Origin: Acidobacterium sp. | GTDB lineage: Bacteria > Acidobacteriota > Vicinamibacteria > Vicinamibacterales > UBA2999 | Direction: 5' to 3' | Length of the DNA: 64,000 nt | NCBI GenBank assembly: GCA_002737365.1 | Contig: NSIL01000006.1 | Span: 1 to 64,000 of the forward strand | Shown here: positions 25,205-39,605 of the stretch, piece after piece | Layout of the letters: the number at the start of each line of letters is the position of its first letter | Numbering within the stretch: position 1 is the first letter of the stretch | Position numbers and translations under genes: made by a program | The notes under the pieces: generated by a model | Database searches by the model: none | What the model saw: the letters and a program-made list of their open reading frames with translations, nothing else | What the model was told of the DNA's origin: nothing

Positions 25205-26193
25205 AGCAATCCCTCACTGCGATACCAGGCCGCAGTGCGATGAATGCCTTCCTCTAAACCCACCTTCGGCGCGAAACCCAGTTCGGTCTTCGCGCGCGTC
25301 GTGTCGAAGGCGCGGCTCTTCGTATAGAAGTCCACGCGCCGGCGGAAGATCGGCGGCTCAATGCGCAGCGGCACGCAGACCATCTCGCACAGCAGACCCG
25401 CGGTCCAGAACGGCCACACCGGCCAGTGCCGCTTCGGCGGCACCACGTTGAGGTCGTTCGCCACCATCCCGACCAACGCCTCGAGTGTGGTGTAGCGCGG
25501 TCCCGCGAGAATGTAAGTGCGGCCGGCGGCGCCGGGCACGGTGCCACACAAGCGAAAGCCTTCAACCAGGTCCTCAACGAACGTCAGGTGATAAAACACC
25601 TGGCCGTCGCCGATCATCGGGAAGTTCCCACGGGCCAGGCCGCGAAACATCTTCAGCAAGCGTAGGTCGCCAGGCCCGTAGATACCGATCGGCCGCGCGA
25701 CCACGACATCAAAGCCGGTCGTACGGCCGTACTCGTGCGCCAGCTTCTCGGCTTCGAGCTTGCTGTTCTGGTAGACATCGCCGGGATTGAACGGCGCGTC
25801 TTCGTTGGCCGGCGGATTCTCGATGTGGCCGTGTACTCCGCCGGTACTGCAATGCACCACGCGGCGAGCACCAGCCGTGCGCGCGGCCTCGAGCACGTTG
25901 CGGGTGCCATCGACGTTGATGGCTCGATACGCAGCATCAGGCTGACCCGCTTCGCGGTAGGTCGCGGCAATGTGGTACACGACCTCCACGCCTTCCGAGG
26001 CGCGGCGCATCGAGGCGGCGTTGGTCAGGTCGCCTTCGGCGGCCTGCACGCCAGCAGCCGCTAGCGGCGAGCGAGCGAACCGGGCGCGGCTCTTCGGCCG
26101 CACCAGCGCGCGCACGTCATCGCCGCGCGCCGCAAGCAACTTCGCCAGGTGGCCACCGGTGAACCCGGTTGCCCCGGTGACCAGCACCTTCAC
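25201..26193 (-). CDS. NAD-dependent epimerase/dehydratase
   Basis: A 330-residue extended SDR. The cofactor loop is GATGFTGG at residues 7-14. The catalytic positions read CSTGGVHG and YQNSKLEAE, so the Tyr-x3-Lys pair is kept (Y..SK). RPIGIYGPGD matches the hopanoid-associated sugar epimerase and related dihydroflavonol-reductase-like branches. The substrate is uncertain: either a sugar nucleotide or a lipid-linked sugar. It sits second in the GT operon between two GT4 genes, with 4-nt overlaps on both sides, which favours a glycan role. Confidence 0.82.
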   Translation of the reverse strand: MKVLVTGATGFTGGHLAKLLAARGDDVRALVRPKSRARFARSPLAAAGVQAAEGDLTNAASMRRASEGVEVVYHIAATYREAGQPDAAYRAINVDGTRNVLEAARTAGARRVVHCSTGGVHGHIENPPANEDAPFNPGDVYQNSKLEAEKLAHEYGRTTGFDVVVARPIGIYGPGDLRLLKMFRGLARGNFPMIGDGQVFYHLTFVEDLVEGFRLCGTVPGAAGRTYILAGPRYTTLEALVGMVANDLNVVPPKRHWPVWPFWTAGLLCEMVCVPLRIEPPIFRRRVDFYTKSRAFDTTRAKTELGFAPKVGLEEGIHRTAAWYRSEGLL

Positions 26194-27410
26194 CGGCGCG
26201 CCAGCTCCGATGACGATGACAAATCTAAAGGTTTGTCGCCACGATTGTTCAGACGCTCGTAGGCTTGCGCGGTGCGGCGCACGTACGACTCGCGGCTGTA
26301 CTTATCCTGCGCGACGAGCCGCGCAGCTGCTGACAGTCGCTCCCGCTGCTCGGGCTGTTCGATCAACTCGAGCACGGCCGCGGCGAACGGCTCGGCTTCC
26401 GGCGCGACGAGTTTCGCAATCTCCGGTGTCAGCACCTGCGTATGCGTCAACAGGTTAGTGGCCACGATGGGCTTGCCCGATCGCAGGTACGAATAGATCT
26501 TGAGCGGCGTGTTGGTGCCACGAATCCGCGGCGACACCAGTAGATCGGCAGCCTGGACAAATCCGGGGATCTCACGCGCGGGCTGTTGACCAGTAAAGAT
26601 CATCACGCCCGATGCGCCACGTGCCACCGCATGCGCCTTCGCCGCTTCCACCTGCGCCGGTTCTCCACCGACGACCAAGACCCTGGCGTCGGGCCGCCGC
26701 TCGGCGATGATCGCGGCCGCATCGATCAGCATGTCGACACCCTGGTACGCCTCGAACGTTCCCGTGTAAAGCGCGACCGGCGTGGCCGGAGCAATGCTCC
26801 AGAACTCCCTCACTTCAGCTGGCGTGCGACTGGGGGCCTCTTCGACATCGCCACCCATCACGTTCTCGATCAGGAGTGATCGGTCGCCGACGCCCATCTC
26901 GGTGACGGTGTCCTGCAGTTCCTGGCAGATGGTGATCACCACCTGCGACTTGTGCACCATCTGGCCTTCGGCCCAAGTGAACAGAGCGTGCAGCACGCCC
27001 GACTGGCTGTATTTGAAGTTGCTCAGCTGCTGCGGCAGGCTCGAGTGCATGTCGTACAAATGCGGAATGCCCAGCCACCTGGCCAGCCACACGCCGAGCA
27101 GGCCCATCTCTTCGTGTGAGTGAATGGCGTCGTACCGCTCGGCAATCACCCGTCGCAACACGGTGAACAGCATGAGGGTGTCGAGCAGGGCCTTGGTGGC
27201 CGACGGCCCAATGCGCACCTTACGGACGAACGGCGGACGCCACGATCGAAAAATGCGCAGGTTCGGCAGCTCAACATCCCGGCCAATCGGATACGTCACC
27301 AGATCGACGTGATGGCCGAGCTCGCCCAGGGTCTTGATCCGGTGGTACTCGCTGAACGGGGTCCCGCGTGGCTCGAAAAACGGCTCGGGCGCGAGCATCA
27401 GGATGCGCAC
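26190..27410 (-). CDS. Glycosyltransferase family 4, TNTPLK subtype
   Basis: The 406-residue GT-B protein begins RILMLAPEPFFEPRGTPFSEY, with the glycine-containing acceptor loop. In the C-terminal half the segment RGTNTPLKIYSYLRSGKPIVAT replaces the standard E-x7-E donor motif. This variant occurs as a distinct GT4 subgroup, so activity is likely but donor recognition may differ. The start is a GTG at 27410. A TATAAT only 5 nt upstream implies a leaderless mRNA. It heads the operon GT4-epimerase-GT4-membrane protein-GT4. Confidence 0.83.
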   Translation of the reverse strand: MRILMLAPEPFFEPRGTPFSEYHRIKTLGELGHHVDLVTYPIGRDVELPNLRIFRSWRPPFVRKVRIGPSATKALLDTLMLFTVLRRVIAERYDAIHSHEEMGLLGVWLARWLGIPHLYDMHSSLPQQLSNFKYSQSGVLHALFTWAEGQMVHKSQVVITICQELQDTVTEMGVGDRSLLIENVMGGDVEEAPSRTPAEVREFWSIAPATPVALYTGTFEAYQGVDMLIDAAAIIAERRPDARVLVVGGEPAQVEAAKAHAVARGASGVMIFTGQQPAREIPGFVQAADLLVSPRIRGTNTPLKIYSYLRSGKPIVATNLLTHTQVLTPEIAKLVAPEAEPFAAAVLELIEQPEQRERLSAAARLVAQDKYSRESYVRRTAQAYERLNNRGDKPLDLSSSSELARR

Positions 27411-27415
27411 GAGTC

Positions 27416-27421
27416 ATTATA
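27416..27421 (-). promoter_or_regulatory. -10 box of the GT operon, leaderless type
   Basis: TATAAT lies 5 nt before the GTG at 27410, so the transcript would begin at or beside the start codon. No clear -35. Confidence 0.5.
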
Positions 27422-27447
27422 TCTAACTGAGCCTACGGTAGTTAGGG

Positions 27448-27453
27448 TACAAT
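27448..27453 (+). promoter_or_regulatory. -10 box of the AglD/YbhN-type gene
   Basis: TACAAT lies 23 nt before the ATG at 27477, back to back with the divergent GT-operon promoter. Confidence 0.35.
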
Positions 27454-27476
27454 CACGGTCTCAGACATCAGACCAG

Positions 27477-28418
27477 ATGAACTCCTTGGCGAAAGTTCTC
27501 GTACGCCTGCTTGTGAGCGCAGTGCTCTTGTATTTCGTGCTGCGATCGATCGACCTCGCCGCGCTCTGGCAGCGCGTACAGGGGATGAATCCTGCCTGGA
27601 TCGCGCTGGCGCTGGGGTCATTCGTCTTCATGCAAGCCGTGTCGGTGTGGCGCTGGCATCGGCTGCTGCGCGCGCAGCATATCGACATCACGTCGCGCGC
27701 GCTCACGGAATCGATCTGGGTCAGCCTGTTCTTCAACAACTTTCTCCCGAGCAACATCGGTGGTGATGTGGTCCGCATCGCGGACACCGCCAGCGCGGCT
27801 GGGTCAAAGACCTTAGCCACCACCGTCGTGCTCGTGGACCGCGTGCTGGGTCTCACGGCGCTCATCATCGTGGCTTCCTTCGGTGCGTTCGCGGCGTCGC
27901 TCGTGGGCATTAACGTGCCTGGCGCCAGGTGGCTATGGATCGTGGCCGCCACCGGTGTGGCCCTGGCGATGCCTGTAATCGTGATACCAAAATTGACGAC
28001 GTACTTGTTGCGGCCCTTGCGCCTGCTACGGAAACCGTGGGTGGACGAACGGGTCCAGCGCCTCGAAGACGCCATTATTCGCTTTAGAGAAGCGCCCTCC
28101 GCACTAGTCGGCGCGTTCGCCGGCGCTCTTGTCGTCCAGGTCACCATGGTGGCCTTTTATTTGCTAACTGCCCAAGGGTTGGCGGTTCCGCTGCCAATTC
28201 TGTTGGGCGCCGTGCTCATCCCAGTGAGTCTGGCGGTCCAGATGGCACCACTCTCCATCAACGGTTTCGGCGTTCGTGAAGCGGTATTCGCGTTCTTCTT
28301 TCGTCGGTTCGGGCTCCCGATCGATGCTGCGGTGGCACTCTCCCTCGTGTCAACGGGCTTGGTGATGGGTTTGTCGCTCGCTGGTGGATACATGTTCCTG
28401 CGGAGGCGCTGGGCCTGA
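27477..28418 (+). CDS. AglD/YbhN-family (LPG synthase TM region) membrane protein
   Basis: From the ATG at 27477 the protein is 313 residues, nearly all membrane helices (about eight). The family signature is FFNNFLPSNIGGDVVRIADTA and, later, PLSINGFGVREAVFAFFF. Longer upstream starts run through the divergent gene and are rejected. The family includes the transmembrane half of lysylphosphatidylglycerol synthases and AglD/YbhN proteins linked to lipid or lipid-linked sugar flipping. No lysyl-transfer domain is present. A flippase-type role for lipid intermediates of the adjacent GT operon is likely but unproven. A second copy is at 37939-38880. Confidence 0.75.
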   Translation: MNSLAKVLVRLLVSAVLLYFVLRSIDLAALWQRVQGMNPAWIALALGSFVFMQAVSVWRWHRLLRAQHIDITSRALTESIWVSLFFNNFLPSNIGGDVVRIADTASAAGSKTLATTVVLVDRVLGLTALIIVASFGAFAASLVGINVPGARWLWIVAATGVALAMPVIVIPKLTTYLLRPLRLLRKPWVDERVQRLEDAIIRFREAPSALVGAFAGALVVQVTMVAFYLLTAQGLAVPLPILLGAVLIPVSLAVQMAPLSINGFGVREAVFAFFFRRFGLPIDAAVALSLVSTGLVMGLSLAGGYMFLRRRWA

Positions 28419-28498: not shown

Positions 28499-29719
28499 GT
28501 GCGAAGACTCCACCACTATCGAGGGCTAATTGCCCTAATTGCAACAGTTTGCCTTGGTGGCTGCGAAGCGGCCAAGAGCGCAAACCCCACGGCCCCAAGC
28601 GTGGCCGGTCCCATTCCCGGCGTCTCGATCACCGCCCCGAAGCCGCTCGAACCGGGCGCCGGTTCGACCCTGGTCTTCGGCGGTGAGCCGCCCACCCTGC
28701 TGATCGAAAACTCAGGCACCAGCGGCGTGCGCACCCTGTGGTTGCAGGTCGAGGTCGGCACCGATGCGGGCTTCCAGCAAATCGTCCATAGCGCTGACCG
28801 GCTGACGCCAGGCGAGGGCGGACGCACCACCTATCGCCTGCCAGAGCCGCTCGGTGCCGGTTACACCTACTACTGGCGCGCCCGCGCGCAGGACGGCGCC
28901 AACGTCGGGCCGTACTCGGCCGTGTCGAGTTTCAGTGTGGTTCCTCCGGTGGTGATCGACGCGCCGACAGCAACGGCCCCCAGCGGTACGCTGACCACCA
29001 ACAAGCTCGACTTCCGCCTGACTAACGGCGCCATCTCCGGCACCTCTGGGGTCGTCTACCGATTTGAGATCTCGCAGTCGGCCAGCATGAGTCCCCTGAC
29101 GGCGCTCGTCACGGCCACGCCCGGCTCTAACGGCACGACCACCATGACGCTGGGCGAATTGCCGTACAACACCACGTACTACTGGCGCGCCTTCGCGACC
29201 GACGGGACGAAGCAGTCGAATTATTCATCGACGCTGTCGTTCCGCACGCCTGCCCCGCCGCCCCCGCCGGCGCCGCCGGCACCGACGCCCGGCCCGAGCA
29301 ACGGTGTACCGCTCGGCAACGGAGGTCGCACCCCCGATCCGACGTCCGGCAGGCTGCCGCTTCCCAACATGGCAAGCGTGGTCCAAGCGGTCGCCAGGGC
29401 CAACCCGGGCGCGCTTCAGAACTCCTGCCAGGACAACGGTGGCAATTGGCAGTTCATGGATCTGGTGGTCGATACCCTGCGCACGTATGACACCCGCTGG
29501 GGCTACAACGGCAAGCGCGGCAACGCGAGTGACCCGTCGCATGACGTGGTGGCCTACCACTACGGTTCCGGAAGTGACCAGGGCACCGCGAACGTGTACA
29601 TCATCGACATCATCGGCGGCCACTGCGGAAGTGCGCCGACAGCTGGCTGGATCGACGTGACGGCTGTGACCGCCAACGCCGGCTCGATTGGCCGGTGGAT
29701 TTCGCGCGGGCGCTTCTGA
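28499..29719 (+). CDS. Ig-like lipoprotein with conserved C-terminal WGYNGK domain (copy 1)
   Basis: A 406-residue lipoprotein. It begins at GTG 28499 (AGAGGGA upstream) and the lipobox LGGC gives Cys22. Two fibronectin/Ig-like domains follow (about 48-145 and 150-250, each with a YYWRA strand), then a Pro-rich linker (TPAPPPPPAPPAPTPGP). The C-terminal domain spans about 276-406 and contains GRLPLPN, SCQDNGG, WGYNGKRG, YHYGSG, NVYIIDIIGGHCG and VTANAG. The same domain ends the proteins at 35019 and 36171. I do not recognise its function; two conserved cysteines suggest a disulfide. It is probably anchored in the outer membrane. Confidence 0.75.
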   Translation: MRRLHHYRGLIALIATVCLGGCEAAKSANPTAPSVAGPIPGVSITAPKPLEPGAGSTLVFGGEPPTLLIENSGTSGVRTLWLQVEVGTDAGFQQIVHSADRLTPGEGGRTTYRLPEPLGAGYTYYWRARAQDGANVGPYSAVSSFSVVPPVVIDAPTATAPSGTLTTNKLDFRLTNGAISGTSGVVYRFEISQSASMSPLTALVTATPGSNGTTTMTLGELPYNTTYYWRAFATDGTKQSNYSSTLSFRTPAPPPPPAPPAPTPGPSNGVPLGNGGRTPDPTSGRLPLPNMASVVQAVARANPGALQNSCQDNGGNWQFMDLVVDTLRTYDTRWGYNGKRGNASDPSHDVVAYHYGSGSDQGTANVYIIDIIGGHCGSAPTAGWIDVTAVTANAGSIGRWISRGRF

Positions 29720-29726
29720 GGGAGAA

Positions 29727-29776
29727 GATCAGGAGCTACGGGAGATCAGGAGGATGCGAGGTCAGGAGGAGGAAGA
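29727..29776. repeat. TCAGGAG short-unit repeat
   Basis: Three imperfect G(A/G)TCAGGAG units fill the gap between two convergent genes, matching the array at the end of ligA. Confidence 0.5.
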
Positions 29777-29782
29777 CCTGAC

Positions 29783-30817
29783 TCAGGGAAGCTCGAACTG
29801 TGAGCGGATGGCGTTGTAGAAAGTCTCGGCAATCTTCGCATACCCGGCCTCGTTCGGGTGCAGGCCGTCCACGCCAATGTAGCGGGTGACATCGGTGGCC
29901 AGCGCGGCATTGATGTCGACGAGCGTCGCGCCAGTCGACCCCGCCACCGAGCGCATGCGGTTGTTGTAGTCGGTCAACAAGATGGGCGAAATGGTCTTGC
30001 TGCCTCCCGGCCAGCCCGGGGCAATGGTGGCCAGGAAGACGAACATGCCACGGCGGCGCGCTTCGCCGACCATGATGCCAATTTCCCGCGCCGCGCTGCT
30101 GGCGGCCCCGTCTTCACCGAGGGCAATGTCGTTACTGCCCTCCATCAGCAGTACGACGTCAGGCCGTGCGGTATTCAGCGCGGCAAAGAATCGATCCCTG
30201 GCGTTGACCGCCTTTTCTCCACCGAGGCCGTAGTTGGCAACAGAGATGCTGTCTTTCTGGGACGAGTATCGCGCGACGAGTTGCTTGCCCAGCACAGTCG
30301 GATACGCCGCCGAAGGCACCTGCACCAGCTTGAACGACGTGCCAAGACCGCCACTGGACGAGACCGGAAAGCTCACTTCACCGTAGGTGATGCTGTCGCC
30401 GAAGGCGAGAAGCCTGGTCTTCGAGATGGATGGAATCCTGGTCACCGTGACCGGGAAGGAACACGACGCCGTCCGCGCCAACGAGTCCTCGGCCGTGCAC
30501 TCCACGCTGGCCTGGCCGACGCCGAACATCGTTCCTGATTCCGGCGTGCAGGTCACGGTGACTGGCGACTGGCCACCCTCGGCAGTCGGCGCGGTGTAGG
30601 TGACGGCAATACCGGTCGTCGCGGTGGTACTCGCCGACACGGGATTGGGACAGGCCAGGGTCGGTTCGGCCGCGACCGGCGGCGGCGGGGGCAGGGGCGG
30701 AGGCGTCGGGGTGGGTGAGGTTGCGGTGGAACCGCTACAGGCCGTTCCGAGGGCGGTGACCAGCACCGCTGCGAGGATGAACCGAGCCCGGAGCGACGAT
30801 GGAAATACTTGCACCAC
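29783..30817 (-). CDS. SGNH/GDSL hydrolase lipoprotein with HYR-like domain
   Basis: The 344-residue product has a signal with a lipobox-like GTAC (Cys27), a Pro-rich spacer, and an HYR/Ig-like domain at about 53-126 with several cysteines. The SGNH hydrolase domain follows: FGDSITYGE (nucleophile Ser142), a Gly block, EGSNDI, and DGLHPNEAGY with the catalytic Asp/His. Such enzymes de-esterify acetylated polysaccharides or lipids. The surface location and glycan neighbours suggest an O-acetyl esterase acting on the exported polymer. It starts with GTG, with TAAAGT about 12 nt upstream. Confidence 0.83.
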   Translation of the reverse strand: MVQVFPSSLRARFILAAVLVTALGTACSGSTATSPTPTPPPLPPPPPVAAEPTLACPNPVSASTTATTGIAVTYTAPTAEGGQSPVTVTCTPESGTMFGVGQASVECTAEDSLARTASCSFPVTVTRIPSISKTRLLAFGDSITYGEVSFPVSSSGGLGTSFKLVQVPSAAYPTVLGKQLVARYSSQKDSISVANYGLGGEKAVNARDRFFAALNTARPDVVLLMEGSNDIALGEDGAASSAAREIGIMVGEARRRGMFVFLATIAPGWPGGSKTISPILLTDYNNRMRSVAGSTGATLVDINAALATDVTRYIGVDGLHPNEAGYAKIAETFYNAIRSQFELP

Positions 30818-30884
30818 GACTAGGCCTTGACTTTACCGCATCAGCCTGCCGGTGACAATTTTCTCAGGAAACATGGTGGATTCC

Positions 30885-32594
30885 TCAGGGGAAAGGCTCA
30901 ACCGGCGGGGGCAGGATTCGATACACGCGGCCCTCCCCTTCGGTGTGTTCAAGCCGCAACTGCTCCGCGAACCGCTGGAACCGCTCGTCGACTTGGGCCC
31001 GGCTGTCTGGCGGGTACTGGTCCTCGTGGACCACGACGTAGGTGACGCCAAGGTCACGCAGGCTTGCGAGACTGACCGCATCGGGGAACCGCGAGAGCTC
31101 GTCGTAGAGGCGTTGGTGCAGGGCCGGCTGAATGCCGCTGTAGCCATGGACCGTCCGCTGCCAATGGGCCGTGGCATGCAGCATGGCCATGGTGTTGTGG
31201 CGCGTGTATGCCCCCAGGTCACCGATCCTGGGCATTGGCACTTCGGCAATTGCAAAAGGCTTGGGCAAGGTGTTCAGCCACCGGTCGATAGCCGGCACCT
31301 CCACCGTGTACGGGACGAAGGCCAGCGGCATGCTCGCATATTCGGCCAGCAACAGGCTGCCGGCCACCAGGGCGGCCGCGACCCGCGGCCCCACCTTGCG
31401 CCCACCAAAGAGCCGATCGAAACCCGCACCGAGCAACACCGCCAGGGCGAGCATGGCCAGAATCATGAAGCGCGACGGGACGCGAATGAAGTTAAACCCG
31501 GGCCACGCGTAGACCCAGGGCCACAGGCTGAATGGCGGTGGCACGAACATGCTGACCGACACGATCAGCATCAACAGGTACAACACCTCGGGCCGCCGGC
31601 GCAGTCGCTCGCGCCAACCACCGGCCGGTTCGACGGTCGACGGACCGGGCAGAAACGCAGCAGTCCCCAGAATGAGCACGGTGACGCCAGGGAAGAGCCA
31701 GGCACTGGCCAACCCATTGACGTCCGTACTCGTCAGCCAGGTTTGGAGGTATTGGTGCAGATGTGAAGGAGACGCAAGATAGCTCTCTGGCGTCGGCAGC
31801 CAGTTCTCGAGCGAGCGCTTCAAACCGACCCCGACTTGCGCGGCCCGGTACGGGACGATCATCGCGGCAATCGGCGCCAGCAGCAGGAGACCGGGGACGC
31901 CCAGATTACCGAGGCGGCGCCCGACGGCCACCGGTTCCCCAAGCGAGACGCGATACAGCATGACTAGCGTCATCGCGACGATCAGGAAAACGGCGCCGTG
32001 ACCGCTGCTGAACACCTGCAGCGTCAAGAACCCGAGTGCGATTCGCAGGTTACGCTTCCCGCCGTGGTCCAGGTAGGTGTGGAAGTATGCCAACGCAAAC
32101 GGCACCCATTGCACCGCGGTGAGGTGCAACTGGCCGATGCGGAAGAACCGCGGCGGAGCCGCGAGATAGACCACGCCGCACAGCACGGCGGCGGTACGGC
32201 TGAAGCCGAGCCGCCGCGCCAGGACATAGGCGCCCAGCCCGCACAGCACGCACGTCGCAAGCTGCACAAGATTGAGTGCCAGCACCAGGTTGCCCGTCAG
32301 CCAAATCACCGGCGCTGCCAGCAGCGCACTGCCCAGCAAGTTCTCGGAGTAGGCCAGCGTCCCTAAGTGCGGATGGAAGATATTGGCGTCGAAGAGGGTC
32401 AGTGGCTGGCTGGTGAAGGCATGAACGTCCCAGGCGAGCGTCCACAAGAACAAATGCGTATCGGGGTTGTCGGCGATCACCATCGTCCCAGGATGCAGTG
32501 AGACCGGGTACGCCAACAGCAGCGTCAGGAGCAAATAGCCGAACGCGACGATCGTGGCGTAGCGAAAATCCGGGGTCGCGAATCTACCGAACAT
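30885..32594 (-). CDS. GT-C-like polytopic membrane protein (family A)
   Basis: A 569-residue membrane protein with about 11 hydrophobic helices and a soluble tail of about 130 residues. The first periplasmic loop reads DNPDTHLFLWTLAWD, followed by FDANIFHPHLGTLAYSENLL. The protein at 43474-45129 has the matching APIFYPELHTLAYSEHMF, so the two are paralogues. They resemble uncharacterised GT-C-type glycosyltransferases. The start overlaps the end of the methyltransferase gene by 11 nt. It likely works on the periplasmic face with a lipid-phosphate sugar donor, by inference from the fold pattern. Confidence 0.62.
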   Translation of the reverse strand: MFGRFATPDFRYATIVAFGYLLLTLLLAYPVSLHPGTMVIADNPDTHLFLWTLAWDVHAFTSQPLTLFDANIFHPHLGTLAYSENLLGSALLAAPVIWLTGNLVLALNLVQLATCVLCGLGAYVLARRLGFSRTAAVLCGVVYLAAPPRFFRIGQLHLTAVQWVPFALAYFHTYLDHGGKRNLRIALGFLTLQVFSSGHGAVFLIVAMTLVMLYRVSLGEPVAVGRRLGNLGVPGLLLLAPIAAMIVPYRAAQVGVGLKRSLENWLPTPESYLASPSHLHQYLQTWLTSTDVNGLASAWLFPGVTVLILGTAAFLPGPSTVEPAGGWRERLRRRPEVLYLLMLIVSVSMFVPPPFSLWPWVYAWPGFNFIRVPSRFMILAMLALAVLLGAGFDRLFGGRKVGPRVAAALVAGSLLLAEYASMPLAFVPYTVEVPAIDRWLNTLPKPFAIAEVPMPRIGDLGAYTRHNTMAMLHATAHWQRTVHGYSGIQPALHQRLYDELSRFPDAVSLASLRDLGVTYVVVHEDQYPPDSRAQVDERFQRFAEQLRLEHTEGEGRVYRILPPPVEPFP

Positions 32595-33927
32595 CGGGAA
32601 CGCGGGCGATGGCAGCGTAATCCTGAAATGTGAACAATCGGCTGTTTAGCCGATCAACATTGTGGTTGAACGTCGACACCAACTCGGTGACCGGGTCGGC
32701 CACTTCGCCAAAATGTTCCGGCCGCGGCGTGACACGTTGCAGGCGTCCCCCCTCGGCGATCGGCGACCGATACACGACATCTACCGACGCGAACCCACTC
32801 GCCTGCAACATGTACTGCAACGTCTCGGGATGAATCGGCTGTTCGTGCGTGAGGTCGCGAATATAGCTCTCGAAGAACGCGACCCAGCAGGCCGGGTTGA
32901 TCGTCTCAAGGATCAGCGGCGCACCGGGCCGCAGCTTGAAGAACGCGGTCTGCAGGAACTGCGAAAGATAGGCAGGCTTCAGGTGCTCGATGACCTGTAC
33001 CGCAATCAGCCCGCCCAGGGATTCATCAGGCAACGCGCGCAGCGTCGCCAGGGCATCGCCCGTTGCCGCCTCGAGGCCGCGCGCGCGACAGGCCTCGGCC
33101 ATTTCGGGGTTGAGGTCGAGCCCTCGCGCGGCGACGCCACGCTCTTTCAATAGCTGAAGAAACTCACCCCGGCCGCACCCCACGTCGAGCACGCTTGAGG
33201 CGCCGTCAAAGTACGGAAGGTAATCGATAAGACGGGCCCGAATCTCGGCTTCGGAGCCGCGGAAGCGATCCTCAAAGCCGAGATACTTAAGCGCATCGAC
33301 GGCATTATTGGGTTGGCCTGCCACGACAGCAGCTGGCGCTTGCCCGCCGGCGGTAGCCGGCGACACGGTGCCGAGGCGCTCGATCTCGCGGCTGGCTCGC
33401 GCCGATGCGCGCTGCGCTACTTCTGCGACGCCCTGCAGGCTCGCGATCGCATCCCGCAGCTCACGGTCACCGGCGTCGGCGAGCGGCGTGATCTGCTGAA
33501 GGAACTGGACCAGCAACGACTCGAAACGAATCAGCGACTCGAATCCGGCCCGCGTCGCGGGCAACGCCGCAGCCAGGGCGGCGCTGACCTCACGATGGGC
33601 GACCGCGTTGCGATTGAGGTGATCGACGAGGGCCGCGTTGAACGCCGCCTGCCGCTCGAACATCGGGCCGATCACGCGCCAGGTGCTGTCAACGATGGTC
33701 TTGTGCCACCACGACGAGCGGGCTGGCTGGCCTGCAGGAATGCTCCGCAACGCCTCGTTGATGACCGGTAGCTGTTGCTCGTCGTAGGGGGGCGGTGGCG
33801 CCGGGAGCTCAGGCAGGGCCTGAATGGCGCGATCGAGGGCTGTCAGCGCCTCGTTGTATCGCCGATATGCTTCCGCACGTTCAGCGGCGAGGCGGCTGAC
33901 CAATCCAGGACTCGATTCGGAACTCAC
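32584..33927 (-). CDS. SAM-dependent methyltransferase with coiled-coil N-terminus
   Basis: The first half of this 447-residue protein is helical and coiled-coil-prone, with Ala/Arg-rich heptads at about 95-195. The second half is a class I methyltransferase with motif I LDVGCGRGEF (about 240-250) and QVIEHLKPAYL. This layout resembles methyltransferases that cap or modify O-polysaccharide chains (WbdD-like, without the kinase). It starts with GTG and has a perfect TTGACA promoter close upstream. Coupling to the GT-C gene supports a glycan substrate; the exact site is unknown. Confidence 0.78.
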   Translation of the reverse strand: MSSESSPGLVSRLAAERAEAYRRYNEALTALDRAIQALPELPAPPPPYDEQQLPVINEALRSIPAGQPARSSWWHKTIVDSTWRVIGPMFERQAAFNAALVDHLNRNAVAHREVSAALAAALPATRAGFESLIRFESLLVQFLQQITPLADAGDRELRDAIASLQGVAEVAQRASARASREIERLGTVSPATAGGQAPAAVVAGQPNNAVDALKYLGFEDRFRGSEAEIRARLIDYLPYFDGASSVLDVGCGRGEFLQLLKERGVAARGLDLNPEMAEACRARGLEAATGDALATLRALPDESLGGLIAVQVIEHLKPAYLSQFLQTAFFKLRPGAPLILETINPACWVAFFESYIRDLTHEQPIHPETLQYMLQASGFASVDVVYRSPIAEGGRLQRVTPRPEHFGEVADPVTELVSTFNHNVDRLNSRLFTFQDYAAIARVPDVR

Positions 33928-33933
33928 GCTGGG

Positions 33934-33962
33934 AAACTACTGCTGGAGCATGAGAGTGTCAA
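33934..33962 (-). promoter_or_regulatory. Promoter of the methyltransferase gene
   Basis: TTGACA (33962-33957), a 17-nt spacer, then TAGTTT (33939-33934), with 6 nt to the GTG start at 33927. It is one of the clearest promoters in the window and implies a leaderless message. Confidence 0.6.
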
Positions 33963-34040
33963 GGACGGACCCCAGAACACCGCGAGGGCTGGCGGTGGCA
34001 GGCACACGCTCAAGGCGCATGCCTGCCCCAGGATCAAAGC

Positions 34041-34805
34041 CTAGAAGCGAATGCGGCCGCCGAACCCGATTTGCAAGCCACCGACCGTCGTCGGCTGTTC
34101 GGTCTGCAGCATCAGAACAGTTGTGTTCGCCGTCGTGTACCGAACAAAGGCGCCAGCCCCGAGACGAACCGAGTCGTTCTGCCAGACCACATAGGTCATG
34201 TCGGCGCCGACGTTGTAGCCGGTTGAGCTCTTCTTGCGGGTCACCCGCGTGTCGGTCACCGCCACCTCCGAGTAGGGTGCGCCCTTTTCCGTCACGGTGA
34301 CCGACGAGATCACTTCCTGCTGCAGGCGGAAGAACGAGGGACCGGCAAACACCAGGACATCGAATTTGGTCCCGATGGGCACCATCCAGCCAAACTGGGC
34401 GTGAACGGCGCTTTCCTTGCGTTCCATGGCCGACACGGTGACAGGGGGAGATAAAGTCCGAGGCTGGTTGAAGAAGATCGGGTGGGGAATCGACCCCGTC
34501 ACGATCGCATCGGCGTCGTTTTGTTCCTGGTGGTAAGAGACGCCGGCCGAGAGGTTCTTCCACAGGCGCCAGCCCACACCGACATCGAACAAGCTGCCCG
34601 ACTTGAACGTGCTGGTCGTCGACACGCTGCCCGTTTCTTCGTAAATGGTCAGCGGCCGGCTATCGGTCAGCGTGCTGTCGCCAGACTCAACGCCGAACCC
34701 GATGTTCATGTAGACACGGTCTTCCCACGGTTTCTGAGCCGAGGCATCTCGTGCCGCAGCCAGGATCAGGCTGGCGGCTACAAAGGTCATTGCAATTCTG
34801 CGCAT
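34041..34805 (-). CDS. Outer-membrane beta-barrel protein
   Basis: A 254-residue protein with a signal peptide (residues 1-23, ending DASAQ). The mature part is composed of amphipathic strands: YMNIGFGVESG, FDVGVGWRLWKNLSAGVSY, VHAQFGWMVPIG, GYNVGADMTYVVW, and a final GLQIGFGGRIRF ending in Phe, the usual C-terminal signature for BAM insertion. It fits a small 8-strand OmpA/OmpW-like barrel. It lies between the methyltransferase and the copy-2 lipoprotein, all in the envelope locus. Its function is unknown. Confidence 0.7.
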   Translation of the reverse strand: MRRIAMTFVAASLILAAARDASAQKPWEDRVYMNIGFGVESGDSTLTDSRPLTIYEETGSVSTTSTFKSGSLFDVGVGWRLWKNLSAGVSYHQEQNDADAIVTGSIPHPIFFNQPRTLSPPVTVSAMERKESAVHAQFGWMVPIGTKFDVLVFAGPSFFRLQQEVISSVTVTEKGAPYSEVAVTDTRVTRKKSSTGYNVGADMTYVVWQNDSVRLGAGAFVRYTTANTTVLMLQTEQPTTVGGLQIGFGGRIRF

Positions 34806-34916
34806 CGTGTTGTTTTCGCTCCGAAAAAGTGGGTCGTGGGATAACCCGTCCTCGAAGACTTTAGCATAGCCGCCACGGGCAAGAGATTCTTTGCCGACAA
34901 AAGGCGCTAACTTGCC

Positions 34917-34940
34917 TTTTTACAGCATTTACGGTAAAAA
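34917..34940. other. Inverted repeat upstream of lipoprotein copy 2
   Basis: TTTTTAC and GTAAAAA are perfect 7-bp arms separated by 10 nt, in an AT-rich patch within a GC-rich region about 80 nt before the TTG start at 35019. It could be an operator or a structural signal. Confidence 0.3.
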
Positions 34941-35018
34941 CAAAGGGCGTTTGCTTCCCGGTCCGTGTCCCAGCGCCGCGATGCGCAAGGACTTGAGAGA
35001 GGCAACAGGAGATTCGAA

Positions 35019-35936
35019 TTGAAGAAGACGTTTTACCCGGCTGGCTTGAGCTTCGTGCTGGCGGCGGTTCTGTCCGGCTGCTCCTCCTCGCCCCAGAGCC
35101 CGACCTCGCCATCGGCGGCGAGCGTCGGCAGCGCTGCAGCGACCGCGAGCGACGGGTCAACCCTGAAGGTCACCTCGCCAGCCATTATTGCGCCGATTGA
35201 TGGCGTGACCGTCGACACCCGGACGCCAACCTTGTATTGGGCTAATTCGACGGGCCACTACGGCTCCGTCGGCCTGGCGTACACCCTTGAAGTGAGTACG
35301 CCAGCGGCTGTGGTTTACACACGCACGGTCGGCGAGACCCCCAACACGGGTAGCCACCGGATCGAACTCGAACTGACGCAGGGCACCGTGTATTCGTGGC
35401 GCATCCGCGCCGCGCTGGGAACACTGGTCGGTCCGTGGTCGATTTGGGCTGAGTTCAGGGCCACGGCACCGGTCGTGGTCGTGCCGCCTCCGACCACCGG
35501 AAGCCCAAGCCCAACCCCAACCCCAACCGGGTTCCGCACACCCGACCCACCGGCGGGACAGCGTCTGCCTCGCGTGAATGGACTCCCTGTGGTGCAACGG
35601 GTGGCAAGTTCCAACCCCAGGGCTTTGCAGAACTCGTGTCAGGATCATGGCGGCAGTTGGGAGTTCATGGACCTCACAGTCGATGCCCTGCAGGCCACCG
35701 ACCTGCGATGGGGCTATAACGGCAAGCGCGGCAATTCCAACGACCCATCGCAAGACGTCGTGGATTACCACTACGGGGCCGGCCCCAGTGAGGGCAGCAC
35801 GCAGGTTTACATCATCGACCTTATATCCGGGCACTGTGGCGCGTCCCCTAGTGTGACCTGGCTGGATGTGACCGATGTCACGGCCAACGCCGGCTCAGTC
35901 GGCCGTTACATCACGCGCCGCCCGGGTCGTCGCTAG
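35019..35936 (+). CDS. Ig-like lipoprotein with conserved C-terminal WGYNGK domain (copy 2)
   Basis: Translation most likely starts at TTG 35019, which has GGAG seven nt upstream and yields a proper signal ending LSGC (Cys21). The 305-residue product has one Ig/fibronectin-like domain (about 45-148, with TLYWANSTG), a Thr/Pro linker (SPTPTPTG), and the C-terminal domain from about 173 to 305: SCQDHGG, WGYNGKRG, YHYGAG, QVYIIDLISGHCG, VTANAG. It is close to copy 1 across that domain. It ends at a strong terminator. Function unknown; it is a surface lipoprotein tied to the glycan locus. Confidence 0.75.
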   Translation: MKKTFYPAGLSFVLAAVLSGCSSSPQSPTSPSAASVGSAAATASDGSTLKVTSPAIIAPIDGVTVDTRTPTLYWANSTGHYGSVGLAYTLEVSTPAAVVYTRTVGETPNTGSHRIELELTQGTVYSWRIRAALGTLVGPWSIWAEFRATAPVVVVPPPTTGSPSPTPTPTGFRTPDPPAGQRLPRVNGLPVVQRVASSNPRALQNSCQDHGGSWEFMDLTVDALQATDLRWGYNGKRGNSNDPSQDVVDYHYGAGPSEGSTQVYIIDLISGHCGASPSVTWLDVTDVTANAGSVGRYITRRPGRR

Positions 35937-35988
35937 GACGACGACCGGGACGTCGCTAACCTAACCGTCCCGATCAGACGCTTCCGGA

Positions 35989-36023
35989 CAAAAGCCGGCC
36001 CAATCGGGCCGGCTTTTGTTTTT
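35989..36023 (+). terminator. Rho-independent terminator after lipoprotein copy 2
   Basis: A perfect 13-bp stem (CAAAAGCCGGCCC / GGGCCGGCTTTTG), a 4-nt loop and then five T residues, about 50 nt after the stop codon. Confidence 0.88.
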
Positions 36024-36114
36024 GATCCACGTCATGAACTTGAGCCGTCAGTCGGCCTGCCAGCCTCAGCGTGCCCGCGACGACACTGATCATCGCGCCA
36101 ATTGCGGTACAGAA

Positions 36115-36142
36115 CAAAGGCAGACCCGTTGGCCTGCCTTTG
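36115..36142 (-). terminator. Terminator after lipoprotein copy 3
   Basis: CAAAGGCAG pairs with CTGCCTTTG around a short inner helix. On the minus strand it is followed by TTCT, a weak T-tract, 28 nt beyond the stop at 36171. Confidence 0.6.
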
Positions 36143-36170
36143 AAACAATCGAGGTCGCGGGGGGCATCGC

Positions 36171-37106
36171 TCAGCGTGACGGCGTCCGGGTCAGCGTCCA
36201 GAAGCCAGGCTCTTCTCCGGTGAAATCCCGATAGGTGGTCGCGGGGGTCGGTCCGCAGTGCCCGGCGAGCGCGTCGATCAAGTAGACGTTCGTCGAGTTC
36301 AGGCTGTCGCCGGCGCCATAGTGATAAGCAATTTCATCGCCTGCACAAGTGACCGGGAAGCCGTTGTTGTCAGCGGCCGTGCGGCTGGGCTTGCCGTTGT
36401 AGCCCCAGCGCGCATCCGACGCACGCAGGTTATCCACCAGCTTGTCGAGCCAGGGATTGCTCGAATACTTCCGGCCGTAGGGGCACGACGGCAAGGTCGC
36501 TACCAGACCGGACATGGCGTTGATGAATGGCCTGGCGTTGGGCAGCGGCAAGCGCCCGCCGGCAGGCGGATCGTTCGGGCGCGGGCCGACGGCCGGCGCA
36601 TTCGGATCCGTTGGCGTCGTCGGGGTCGTCGGGGTGGTGGTGCCGATCGTCGTGAACGAGAGCACCTGCGACCAGGGACCGTACTTGTCGCTCTGCTCGG
36701 CCCGGCTGCGCCAGAAGACCTTCTTGGCCGCCGGCAACGCCGTTGTGGAGTAGCGAATCAGCCCCTGCGAATCGGCGGCTCCCGTGCCACTCGACAGCAG
36801 CGTACCGAAGCTCTCGGAGTCGCTGACCTCGAATCGGTGTGGGAAGCTGGAGGTGATCTGGGTGCCCTTCGCCGCCTGAACGGTCAGGATCGCTTCCACC
36901 GGCACGCTGGTCGCATCCGGCATCGGGAAGACGGCATTTGGCGCAGTGGCCTTCAAATTTGACCCGTCGGCATTAAGGGCATTGGCCGTACCCACCACGG
37001 CTGAGGGCGAGACCGGTGTCGCCATCCCGCCTTCACATGCTGTCAATGCCAGCGTACAGCAAACGGAAAATACGGCAGGATGGGTCAGACGACGAAAGGT
37101 ATTCAT
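36171..37106 (-). CDS. Ig-like lipoprotein with conserved C-terminal WGYNGK domain (copy 3)
   Basis: A 311-residue lipoprotein, lipobox LTAC with Cys24. One Ig-like domain (about 52-155, with KKVFWRSRAEQ) leads to a Thr/Pro linker and then the C-terminal domain (about 178-311). This copy is the most diverged: it keeps GRLPLPN, RWGYNGK, YHYGAGD, NVYLIDALAGHCGPTP, but has an insertion with two extra cysteines (LPSCPYG and VTCAGD). It faces copy 2 and is read from the opposite strand. A palindrome covers its -10 box. Confidence 0.73.
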   Translation of the reverse strand: MNTFRRLTHPAVFSVCCTLALTACEGGMATPVSPSAVVGTANALNADGSNLKATAPNAVFPMPDATSVPVEAILTVQAAKGTQITSSFPHRFEVSDSESFGTLLSSGTGAADSQGLIRYSTTALPAAKKVFWRSRAEQSDKYGPWSQVLSFTTIGTTTPTTPTTPTDPNAPAVGPRPNDPPAGGRLPLPNARPFINAMSGLVATLPSCPYGRKYSSNPWLDKLVDNLRASDARWGYNGKPSRTAADNNGFPVTCAGDEIAYHYGAGDSLNSTNVYLIDALAGHCGPTPATTYRDFTGEEPGFWTLTRTPSR

Positions 37107-37219: not shown

Positions 37220-37942
37220 TTGTCTGAACCATCGACGTTCTACAAGTCCTTTTCGGAAAAGAAGCTCACCAGCTACGGGAGCGCCCGCCGCGGCCGGATT
37301 GAACAACACCGGCTGGCACTGCTCCATCGCTTTCGCCAGGCGCCCGGGGAGATGGTCGAAGTCGGCCCCGGGCATGGCACGCTGGCTGAGCAGGCTGTCG
37401 AGGCCGGCTGGCAGTACACCGCCATCGAAGCCAGCCCCATCCTGATCAAGGTCCTGCGCGACAAGGGCCTGCGCGTGATCGAGTCGTGGGCGCCTCCGAT
37501 TCCGGTGCCCGATGCCAGCGTCGACGTCGTCTACGCCGACCAGGTGCTTGAGCACATGAGCGGCATCGATGCGGCTCGCGCGCTTACGGCCGAGGCACTC
37601 CGAGCGCTCCGCCCCGACGGTGTGCTCTTTGTGGTGGTCCCCGACTACCTTAAAGAACGCACGTTCTTCTGGGATGTCGACTACACCCATAATTTTGTGA
37701 CGACGGAGCGGCGGGTCAAGCAGCTGTTCAACGATGGCGGCTTTGACATCCTGCACGTGGAGCGTGGCATTGGCCTCGCCACGGGACCGGCTCGAGATGC
37801 CCTGGCTGCGGCGGCGATGCTGGCCAATCTCCCTGGGCTCGACCCCCTTTCTCGCTACCTCGGCACCGAGGACTTGCTGTTCAAGGTGCGCAAGAACCTG
37901 TTTGAGACGTTGACCTTCGTGGCACGCCCGGCCGCGCGGTGA
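37220..37942 (+). CDS. Class I SAM-dependent methyltransferase
   Basis: A 240-residue methyltransferase that starts at TTG 37220. Motif I is VEVGPGHGTL (about 46-55), an acidic residue binding SAM follows in TAIEASP, and YADQVLEHM is the post-motif. It is of the UbiE/methyltransf_11 type common in glycan and lipid clusters. It is followed without a gap by the YbhN-type gene (GTGA overlap) and the CmcI-like gene, so the three form one operon. The substrate is unknown, probably a sugar or lipid-linked sugar. Confidence 0.8.
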   Translation: MSEPSTFYKSFSEKKLTSYGSARRGRIEQHRLALLHRFRQAPGEMVEVGPGHGTLAEQAVEAGWQYTAIEASPILIKVLRDKGLRVIESWAPPIPVPDASVDVVYADQVLEHMSGIDAARALTAEALRALRPDGVLFVVVPDYLKERTFFWDVDYTHNFVTTERRVKQLFNDGGFDILHVERGIGLATGPARDALAAAAMLANLPGLDPLSRYLGTEDLLFKVRKNLFETLTFVARPAAR

Positions 37943-38880
37943 AGGCCTGGGCCTGGACGGCGACCCGGGTCGTCGTCACCGTCAGCATCCTGGCGTGGCT
38001 GGCCCGCGACCTGGATGGACCGGCCGCCGTCACAGCGCTCGGCCGGTTCCCTCTGTCTGCTGCGCTGCTGGCCCTGGGCCTGGTGGCCGTCGACCGGGTA
38101 TTGATGTACCTGCGGTGGCGGATTCTGATTCGACCATTCACGACTTTGCGCGAGGCGGACCTCGCCCGCATCTTCTTCGTGAGTGCATTCCTTGGCAGTT
38201 TCCTTCCCGCGGGTATTGGCGGAGACGTCGCGCGCGCCTATTCGGTGAGCCGTGGGGGCAGCACCTCGGGCGCCGCCGTGGCCAGCGTGGTCATCGATCG
38301 GTGGCTCGGCCTGCTGGCGGTCGGCATCTCGGGCTGCCTCGGGCTGCTGCTGGTCCCCTTCGATCTGTTCGCGCCGTTGCTCTACCCGATGATTGGCCTG
38401 ACGGCACTGCTCGCGGTGGGCAGTGGCGCAGGTCTTTATGCCGAGCGTCTGGTCGAGCGGTTCATGCCGCCAGCAATGCGCCACTCATGGGCTGGGCGAC
38501 AGCTCGTCCGGCTCGGCGATGCGCTGGCCGCCTACCGATCGCACCCTTCAGCGCTGGCACGCGTCGCCGTACTCTCGGTGGCGGTGCAAGGCAGTCGGAT
38601 CGTACTGGCGTGGCTGATCGGCGCCAGCCTCGGCATCCCGCTGCCCTTCGGCTACTATTGGGCGTTCATGCCCTTGAACATCCTCGTCATCTTGATCCCG
38701 GTTTCTCTCGGGGGATTTGGGCTGCCGCAAGGCGCGATGGTGTGGACCCTTGGCCCGCTCGGGGTTCCCGCGACAGCAGCGTTCCTGTTGTCGACAGTAT
38801 TTGTCGGCGCCGGCGTGATTGGCAACCTGCCAGGCGCCCTCCTGTTCGCCACCGGCCGAGCGAGAAACGAAACCTCATGA
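37939..38880 (+). CDS. AglD/YbhN-family membrane protein (second copy)
   Basis: A 313-residue protein with eight or so membrane helices. FLGSFLPAGIGGDVARAYSVSR and LIPVSLGGFGLPQGAMVW are the two family motifs and match positions in the copy at 27477. It starts with GTG overlapping the methyltransferase stop (GTGA) and its own stop overlaps the next gene as ATGA. Lipid or lipid-linked sugar translocation is the likely role by family, without direct proof. Confidence 0.75.
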   Translation: MKAWAWTATRVVVTVSILAWLARDLDGPAAVTALGRFPLSAALLALGLVAVDRVLMYLRWRILIRPFTTLREADLARIFFVSAFLGSFLPAGIGGDVARAYSVSRGGSTSGAAVASVVIDRWLGLLAVGISGCLGLLLVPFDLFAPLLYPMIGLTALLAVGSGAGLYAERLVERFMPPAMRHSWAGRQLVRLGDALAAYRSHPSALARVAVLSVAVQGSRIVLAWLIGASLGIPLPFGYYWAFMPLNILVILIPVSLGGFGLPQGAMVWTLGPLGVPATAAFLLSTVFVGAGVIGNLPGALLFATGRARNETS

Positions 38881-39605
38881 GCACGCTCAGTACCCTGCGA
38901 CGATCGATCGTCCACGAGATCAAGACCCTGCGCGGCGCGCTGTACCGCCGGATTTCCGTCAACCCCAAGGACGAGTGCGCCCTGGTCGACGAGTTCCACC
39001 GCTTGTACTTCGACGCGCGCGCGTTCAATATGACGTGGCGAAACACTTATTGGATGGGCCACGCGATCCTGAAGTGTCCGCTCGACCTGTGGCTCTACCA
39101 GGAGATGCTTCACACCGTCCGCCCGGCGGTCGTCATCGAAACGGGCACAGCCTTCGGCGGCAGTGCGCACTTCCTAGCCTCGATGATGGACCTGCTCGGC
39201 CACGGCCGGGTAATTACGATCGACATCGAAGAGCGTCCCGGTCGCCCGTCGCATCCCCGCGTCACCTACCTGACGGGCTCGTCGACCGCCAGCACGATGG
39301 TGGCGCAGGTGCGCGCACTGGTCGGCGACGCCTCACCGGTGGTGGTACTGCTTGATTCAGACCATGCCCGGGATCACGTCCGGGCCGAACTCGAGGCCTA
39401 CGCTCCCTTCGTAACGCCCGGCAGCTACCTCGTCGTGGAGGATACCAATCTCAACGGCCACCCGATTGAACCCGACCATGGTCCAGGCCCGATGGAGGCC
39501 CTCATGGACTTTCTGCCCGGCCATCCTGAATTCGCCCATGACAAAGCGATGGACAAGTTCTTCCTGACTTTCAATCCCCGGGGGTTCCTCAAGCGGGCGC
39601 GCTAG
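38877..39605 (+). CDS. Cephalosporin hydroxylase (CmcI)-family protein
   Basis: A 242-residue SAM-fold protein. Signature segments are VVIETGTAFGGSAHF (SAM-binding loop), ITIDIEERPGRP, and VVLLDSDHARDHV, followed by YLVVEDTNLNGHP with acidic metal ligands. CmcI relatives include rhamnosyl O-methyltransferases in glycolipid and lipopolysaccharide clusters, so sugar O-methylation is more likely than antibiotic hydroxylation here. It starts with ATG overlapping the previous stop and ends the operon. Confidence 0.8.
   Translation: MSTLSTLRRSIVHEIKTLRGALYRRISVNPKDECALVDEFHRLYFDARAFNMTWRNTYWMGHAILKCPLDLWLYQEMLHTVRPAVVIETGTAFGGSAHFLASMMDLLGHGRVITIDIEERPGRPSHPRVTYLTGSSTASTMVAQVRALVGDASPVVVLLDSDHARDHVRAELEAYAPFVTPGSYLVVEDTNLNGHPIEPDHGPGPMEALMDFLPGHPEFAHDKAMDKFFLTFNPRGFLKRAR

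Follow-up and report, generated by a model that had tools for sequence, protein, structure and literature searches.

Three lipoprotein genes lie near a glycan locus in a 64,000-nt stretch of DNA from Acidobacterium sp. (positions 1-64,000, forward strand, of contig NSIL01000006.1, assembly GCA_002737365.1; the whole analysed stretch is called the window here), and they raise the question of what their common C-terminal domain, here termed T1, does at the cell surface. A preliminary description of the window had reported three paralogues at 28499, 35019 and 36171 (here A, B and C), each with a lipobox, Ig-like domain(s), a Pro/Thr linker and the common C-terminal domain; this was confirmed. The answer that we favour, and to which we give about an even chance, is that A, B and C are stalked outer-membrane lipoproteins with exchangeable ligand-binding tips, taken from a pool that is shared with phages. 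(G, C and L numbers are our handles for genomes, contigs and loci.)

An unnamed C-terminal domain

The gene for A starts with GTG at 28499 behind a GAGGGA-like element, B with TTG at 35019 behind AGGAG, and C with ATG at 37106. The lipoboxes, read from the sequence, are LGG-C22 in A, LSG-C21 in B and LTA-C24 in C; the proteins are presumably located in the outer membrane and exposed at the surface. Pfam matches of the stalks to Ig/fn3-like families are sub-threshold but consistent: PhoD_N (1e-5) and Rha78A_N (8.6e-4) in A, and Rha78A_N in B (6.2e-5) and C (2.3e-3). The C-terminal fold is independent of the Ig part. Residues 79-146 of the A stalk (window 28733-28936, + strand) match phrog_6977, a minor tail protein, in two stretches (E 2e-6), so the stalk, like the tip, has phage relatives.

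T1 is about 125 residues long. Identity is 66% between the domains of A and B and 41-43% between those of A and C; with E values of 3.2e-53 (A/B) and 3.2e-18 (A/C) in a whole-genome search, the likeness is not due to chance. In G000, the genome from which the window comes (3.05 Mb, 97% complete), A, B and C are the only T1 matches below E 0.1 in a single-query search, a fourth match (E 0.29) with an internal stop being disregarded, and the only matches at E <= 1 in a search with a diverse profile. The motifs WGYNGK, YHYGxG and VYxIDxxxGHCG are common to all three, as had been described, whereas GRLPLPN is exact only in A and C and reads QRLPRVN in B. The account of C as diverged and richer in cysteine was correct as well: one extra Cys is within the T1 domain (VTCAGDE) and two are within the signal peptide.

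An alignment of 77 T1 rows includes A, B and C, two rows that were later classed as T3, and what appears to be a single gene entered twice, as L029 and L058. In it D349 and D370 (A numbering) are invariant, and R333 is present in 75 of the 76 rows with a letter at that column. C310 is found in 72/76 rows and C376 in 74/77, both together in 69/77, and a second Cys pair (338/343) occurs in ten rows, always paired; we read both pairs as likely disulfides. The conserved residues in A are C310, R333, W334, D349, D370, H375 and C376. In 77/77 rows T1 ends at most 31 residues before the end of the open frame, L017 being cut off by the contig end. The scaffolds that carry a C-terminal T1 differ and comprise Ig, Big-like, WxFAEG-repeat plus IPT-like and phage coiled-coil types, the names other than Ig being a reading by eye. 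Three loci, L061 (G317:C1), L063 (G125:C1) and L075 (G362:C288), have neighbouring genes for 740-850-aa proteins with repeats of the WxFAEG kind and an IPT/TIG-like domain (also read by eye), in which T1 lies near the C terminus and is followed by an extra tail of about 27 residues in each.

AlphaFold2 gave models of high confidence for T1 of A (mean pLDDT 95.5, pTM 0.90) and of C (mean pLDDT 91.3, pTM 0.87). In the A model, helices at the N terminus and one over FMDLVVDTLR are followed by four strands that carry WGYNGK, DVVAYHYG, VYIIDII and WxDVT. A search of Pfam, NCBIfam and PHROGs with 41 T1 members found nothing convincing, no match being above a curated cut-off or below E 1e-3 (best E 0.018, 0.02 and 0.0061, respectively). 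Two phage families of unknown function match the T1 core weakly: phrog_12792 in 5/41 members (best E 0.0061), whose own profile gave a single match (E 0.008) in 199 genomes of the phylum, and phrog_5621 in 2/41 members (best E 0.031); neither match is significant or establishes membership. Among PDB sequences, the best phmmer hit of A was a fragment of a glycosyl hydrolase family protein (E 0.13) and the best hit of a profile search was unrelated (E 0.095), with no carbohydrate-binding module matched; Foldseek comparison of the T1 models with the PDB gave nothing better than E 1. No paper on these proteins or on T1 was found in the literature covered, which did not extend to subscription papers. 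The domain had not been recognised in the preliminary description either, and the profile and Foldseek comparisons made here matched no characterised family convincingly. T1 is a real, unnamed domain outside all families of the libraries searched.

The models also bear on a quite improbable alternative, in which the tip would have a divergent papain/transglutaminase-like fold and, as an enzyme or a pseudo-enzyme, modify or bind surface proteins. The A model aligns weakly, over most of the domain, with menin (Z 4.4; 103 residues, 3.8 Å) and LapG (Z 2.8; 92 residues, 4.4 Å), and the C model with PSL1a (Z 2.5; 101 residues, 4.7 Å); menin and LapG are not listed among the matches of the C model, which excludes nothing. 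We take LapG and PSL1a to be papain-like. However, all Z values are below 5, a range in which the tool warns of common arrangements, Foldseek E values are 1 or worse, and hhalign against 12 Transglut_core sequences from related genomes (those of 24 loci that passed a motif filter) gave a probability of 1.7%, that is, no profile similarity. Nor does T1 show a conserved catalytic Cys-His-Asp order: the Cys pair behaves like a disulfide and no His is conserved between C310 and D370. PF06035 was absent from 99 genomes of the phylum, which thus gave no LapG-type sequences for comparison. Menin has been placed among the papain-like proteins, and human menin lacks the catalytic Cys, according to the part of the source available (PMC10318531). 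A papain-like fold of T1 is weakly hinted at by the models; if it is real, the tips are probably pseudo-enzymes, because no Cys-His pair is conserved.

Two conserved slots in a glycan locus

The preliminary description had placed the lipoproteins near a glycan locus and had proposed to look at taxonomic spread and neighbourhood; both were surveyed, and the locus turned out to be conserved around them. It is present in several families of the order with two fixed positions for tip genes, slots A and B, in the order epimerase, GT4, flippase-like protein, slot A, outer-membrane β-barrel protein (OMP), slot B, methyltransferase, second flippase-like protein, often CmcI, and radical SAM protein. 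T1 was matched in 17/396 genomes drawn across the phylum and in 22/43 genomes of the window's family. The locus methyltransferase is present in 20/43 family genomes, all among the 22 T1 carriers, and the small barrel OMP in 22/43, of which 19 are among these carriers; the family counts are not independent, since related genomes share ancestry. The relatives found in the public collection mostly bear the titles Acidobacteria/Acidobacteriota, Vicinamibacterales or Luteitalea; copies 53-55% identical to A also occur in three records of other title, two of Myxococcales/Polyangiaceae (L023, L024) and one of Deltaproteobacteria (L020).

We laid out 30 loci, 29 of them distinct (L009 is the same contig as L152), and in 20 the slots contain at least two tip genes. 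Both flanks are covered in 17 loci, and at least two tip genes are present in 16 of these; in L026 both tips are on the methyltransferase side. Several genomes of the window's genus have a GDSL lipoprotein, a GT39-like polytopic protein (by eye) and a methyltransferase between A and the OMP. The GDSL/HYR lipoprotein is kept in L065 and L181.

Lipoprotein C is added convergently to B in four loci (the window, L065, L066 and L016). In a quick domain tree, built from few columns, C is in a group of 12 rows (support 88) that is joined by four relatives (98) and stands apart from A and B; other members of the C clade are mostly found elsewhere in the genomes, with L069, L074, L028 and L056 outside the slots. 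Because its clade is separate and the other members mostly lie outside the slots, C is an old paralogue and not a fresh copy. The idea that the component 'is duplicating' largely did not hold: slots A and B are filled in several genera and families and the clade of C is mostly found elsewhere, so the copies are old. Local duplication or conversion was seen in L026, with two near-identical neighbouring tips. The change lies in which type of tip domain the conserved stalk carries, something that the preliminary description had no means of seeing.

Exchange of tips on related stalks

Slots that seemed to be without T1 do contain a lipoprotein with the same lipobox, Ig stalk and linker, and a different C-terminal domain. 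The motif behind the lipobox is kept whichever tip follows (SANPxxPxxAGPIPGVSI in slot A, SPxSPSA in slot B). Two further tip types were distinguished: T2, with the signature GHxRYNxxGPDxxWCIKDxGxGRPxSDDVIVRCxxRDAWDLIxGAGG, and T3, with EDVVAYxxxxGFDxVVGAGG plus extra Cys. Profile comparison gave a score of 48.8 (E 1e-7) for T1 with T3 and 32.0 (E 9.5e-5) for T3 with T2, the best of 100 column shuffles reaching 18.3 and 20.2, respectively, so that neither score was beaten (0/100 in each case); the T3 alignment has three rows only. Two elements are common to T1-T3, an Asp before the DVV/DVI strand and the Asp of the VYxID/WDLI strand. From these profiles we conclude that T1, T2 and T3 form one superfamily, T1 and T2 being linked via the three-row alignment of T3.

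The tip pairs at 20 loci are T1/T1 in ten (L026 included), T2/T2 in five, T1/T3 in three and T1/T2 in two; beyond these 20 there are two more T2/T2 loci, one of them in another family of the order. Tip types differ between genera and also between genomes of the same genus. In the window's genus, G000, G285, G348 and G167 are T1/T1 and G107 and G396 are T2/T2, while in slot A the stalks of G107 and G396 share 66-76% identity with those of G000, G285 and G348. Compared with L149, a locus of the same genus with a different tip type, the window's slot-A stalk is 70% and its slot-B stalk 59% identical. On the stalk trees (20 rows for slot A, 22 for slot B; short stalks, unclear slots and the duplicate L009 dropped), the T2 label has to change twice in slot A, both changes forced by supported branches, and three times in slot B, two of them forced; the T3 label has to change three times in slot B, once forced. 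Long branches are those of L012 and L021 in slot A and of L026, L025, L018 and L006 in slot B. The tip type has changed at least twice in each slot, and related stalks were retained.

T2 occurs in 13/162 genomes of the order and in 2/297 drawn from the phylum. Its places in the order number 21, of which 18 are in these loci; G401:C6 is outside, and G399:C39 and G418:C90 were not placed. The T2 tree places the slot-B tips from the window's genus together with slot-A and phage tips, apart from the other slot-B tips (99/100), which suggests that T2 entered slot B more than once. The exception outside the loci, L178 (G401:C6; 3694-5550), looks like a protein with a signal peptide, an N-terminal T2 and then fn3-like repeats (by eye), that is, with reversed domain order, and lies outside the glycan locus beside genes resembling prfA and prmC.

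A possible route of replacement is seen in G397, of the same genus. Near the position of A in the window it has a remnant of slot A (L181, G397:C170, 1634-2548), whose frame leads from the flippase-like start region directly to the very end of the A stalk; the tip core lacks about 60 residues, and over the 102 residues that still align the identity to A is 82%. An A-like gene with a T2 tip (L181, 9670-10869) follows about 7 kb further on, and its stalk is 76% identical to that of the window's A over 264 residues. This suggests replacement of the tip by a second copy and decay of the first, in a draft genome (85% complete, 180 contigs) in which a misassembly is possible.

Within the genus, OMPs of T1 and T2 genomes are 49-54% identical (six pairs), those of T1 genomes 60-66% (three pairs) and those of T2 genomes 69% (one pair). 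The slot-B stalk follows this trend, the slot-A stalk and the methyltransferase do not. Co-evolution of OMP and tip is not claimed, as across genera the OMP identity with shared T2 is 33-38% versus 38-40%.

C-terminal exchange on a constant N terminus is also the hallmark of polymorphic toxins, for which adjacent immunity genes are a key feature, as stated in the accessible part of the source (PMC3482391). A, B and C could accordingly be read as contact-dependent effectors, with a conserved delivery part and a swappable toxin at the C terminus. We regard this as highly improbable: no adjacent immunity gene is seen to accompany the exchange, and the neighbours are conserved, unrelated to the tip and constant whatever its type. 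A recognised downstream gene could be seen for 53 of the 56 tip genes (L009, a duplicate contig, contributes two of the 56), and the gap to it was below 500 bp for 42; as the gaps were measured between stop-to-stop frames, some are wider than stated. Among the 11 larger gaps, the three that were opened each contained one large open reading frame (ORF) that looks by eye like a polytopic glycan enzyme, and no small conserved gene.

Tip domains in viral contigs

T1 was found in one viral contig of IMG/VR and T2 in two. Contig L060 encodes a 228-aa protein that ends in T1 and shows no evident signal peptide; its gene immediately follows a 1344-aa ORF and is the second ORF after a structural protein matching phrog_399 (E 3e-8). 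The T2 protein of L155 (54% identical to a slot tip) has an apparent signal peptide, the domain, a Pro linker and a coiled-coil-like tail; in L156 (44% identical) the domain comes first, and a YqaJ recombinase is nearby. In BFVD, the phage protein A0A6J5QSJ9 resembles the T1 model (E 1.4e-8) and a second predicted phage protein does so at E 0.029. A collection of named phages gave no credible relative of T1 of A, T1 of L060, T2 or T3: a tblastn match in Serratia phage JS26 (E 0.08) is inside the annotated head maturation protease and was rejected as chance, as were Lactobacillus phage matches (E 3). Further scans of IMG/VR, which reach close relatives only, gave no new T1 locus. In L156 (7110-8675) two small ORFs that look like signal-peptide and Ig-like proteins are directly upstream of the T2-first ORF, an arrangement of stalk and tip as separate genes.

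Receptor-binding tips of phages are exchangeable. The position of T1 at the end of a protein in the structural region of L060 resembles that of tail-fibre or receptor-binding tips; it differs in that bacterial T1 is carried by lipoproteins and that its relative T2 is N-terminal, on a small protein with a coiled-coil-like tail, in the two other viral contigs. The tips could then be captured phage receptor-binding domains used for defence, the displayed tip occupying the receptor and blocking adsorption. The presence of both T1 and T2 in viral contigs would agree with this, as would the rarity of T2 in bacteria (13/162), its concentration in these loci (18/21 places) and the place of phage T2 tips among slot-A tips in the tree. 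However, there are only three viral contigs, the identity of 44-54% to slot tips means that no recent direct donor is seen, the tips could have passed in either direction, and two or more tips in 16/17 loci are what a standing part of the locus, not an occasional defence gene, would be expected to show. We consider capture for defence to have a slim chance.

An unlikely, different reading is that the tip binds peptidoglycan or another periplasmic polymer and that A and B tether the outer membrane and the small barrel to the wall, the same domain near phage lysis genes holding lysis proteins there. Pal-like lipoproteins tether the outer membrane to the wall, and the lipoproteins considered here flank the small barrel in conserved slots. 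In L155 (4250-6811), lysozyme-like, glycosidase-like, T2 and NlpC-like ORFs appear by eye in a row, and the T2 protein has its apparent signal peptide; it is possible that T2 belongs to a lysis or wall-degradation module there. Pfam at E 0.01, however, does not call the lysozyme-like and NlpC-like neighbours, the T1 protein of L060 is without an evident signal peptide, and repeated exchange of tips, even among members of one genus, would not be expected if the ligand never varied, as is the case for peptidoglycan. An inactive papain-like family, DUF1175, is named as peptidoglycan-binding in the part of the source available (PMC10318531), which speaks for the wall tether.

A proposed stalked surface-binding lipoprotein with exchangeable tips

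A binding or anchoring role, already considered in the preliminary description, remains the most economical reading of the sequences. We propose that A, B and C consist of a stalk (lipid anchor, Ig-like domains and flexible linker) bearing a C-terminal ligand-binding tip, and that A and B are the constant pair of a cell-surface glycan locus, acting beside the small outer-membrane barrel. Each tip would recognise a surface polymer, most likely the glycan made by the products of the neighbouring glycosyltransferase, flippase and methyltransferase genes, and would hold it at the cell surface. A change of ligand may lead to a new tip, either through recombination at the linker or through gain of a copy with a different tip and loss of the earlier copy; phages encountering this surface would carry the same tip domains on proteins of their own. 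We infer recognition of a variable surface ligand because the stalk is constant, the tips are repeatedly replaced, the locus is one of glycan assembly and the same tips are found in viral contigs.

Several observations weigh against glycan-binding tips shared with phages. T1 matches no family or solved structure convincingly in the libraries searched, carbohydrate-binding modules included, and the invariant Asp pair with the near-invariant Arg would suit a catalytic or metal site equally well as a glycan site. The direct profile score of T1 with T2 (13.8) is not significant, 32/100 shuffles being as high, and the counts of changes on the stalk trees do not tell gains from losses. L025 has the locus with one tip gene. 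T2 is N-terminal in L155, L156 and the secreted L178, which, together with the signal peptide and the lysis-like neighbours (by eye) in L155, would fit a cell-wall or periplasmic ligand better than a surface glycan. Finally, the terminase family phrog_2 was not found in the L060 record, so the viral nature of L060 rests on IMG/VR and one PHROG match.

The kind of system is already known; the domain and the observed exchange are new. As far as the accessible parts of the sources go, surface glycan-binding proteins (SGBPs) of Bacteroidota such as SusE/SusF and SGBP-lev are likewise lipoproteins in which one or two Ig-like domains accompany a C-terminal ligand-binding domain, and their genes lie with a glycan locus and that of an outer-membrane protein (PMC7618045, PMC7157763). 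The levan SGBP has two Ig-like domains and a C-terminal binding domain that reaches outward, an architecture that, in the part of the description available, equals that of the lipoproteins of the window (PMC7618045). In contrast to SGBPs, the partner barrel in the window is a small OMP_b-brl protein and the locus appears to build a glycan, not to break one; the tip matches no family in the libraries searched, and its binding function is conjectural. Twenty genes of the window scanned with Pfam comprised glycosyltransferases, flippase-like proteins, methyltransferases, OMP_b-brl, GDSL and others, and none of them matched SusC or SusD.

The analysis brings to light a domain superfamily without a name, modelled with high confidence and marked by two invariant Asp, and assigns it to a conserved locus in an order of Acidobacteriota that has received little study. 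It describes a natural, repeated swap of tip types between close relatives, with the same tips in viral contigs, and opens a simple test, the comparison of tip type with the glycan or phage bound by a strain. More tentatively, and with less confidence than the reading given at the outset, the locus may be a two-slot tip-exchange system in which cell and phage share the T1-T3 pool and the tip predicts the displayed glycan or the adsorbing phages.

Features of the window

Table 1 Coordinates and properties of the lipoproteins, their tips and other genes in the window.
Feature	Position	Strand	Remarks
Lipoprotein A, slot A	28499..29719	+	406 aa; signal peptide and lipobox C22, two Ig-like domains, Pro-rich linker, T1 tip
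Lipoprotein B, slot B	35019..35936	+	305 aa; lipobox C21, one Ig-like domain, Pro/Thr linker, T1 tip
Lipoprotein C	36171..37106	-	311 aa; lipobox C24, one Ig-like domain, Thr/Pro linker, diverged T1 tip, separate clade
T1 tip of A	29348..29716	+	Core, residues 284-406; modelled construct from residue 273
T1 tip of B	35556..35930	+	
T1 tip of C	36174..36560	-	AlphaFold2 pLDDT 91.3
NAD-dependent sugar epimerase/dehydratase	25201..26193	-	Best NCBIfam match HpnA, below cut-off; locus boundary gene
GT4-type glycosyltransferase	26190..27410	-	
Flippase-like LPG_synthase_TM protein upstream of A	27120..28418	+	True start probably inside the open frame
GDSL-type lipase/acylhydrolase lipoprotein with HYR domain	29783-30817	-	Pfam 3.6e-22, 1.7e-8; between A and OMP
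Small outer-membrane β-barrel (OMP_b-brl)	34041..34805	-	254 aa; between slots A and B; conserved partner gene
Methyltransferase after slot B	37220..37942	+	
Second flippase-like LPG_synthase_TM protein	37939..38880	+	
CmcI/rhamnosyl O-methyltransferase-like protein	38877..39605	+	Start approximate; match in 3' part of 37995-39605 frame
Radical SAM protein	39666..40811	+	Far boundary of conserved locus
Nickel insertion protein family member	13296-14522	-	Pfam PF01969, E 3e-138; presumably LarC
Methionyl-tRNA synthetase	11350-13311		Adjoins the PF01969 gene

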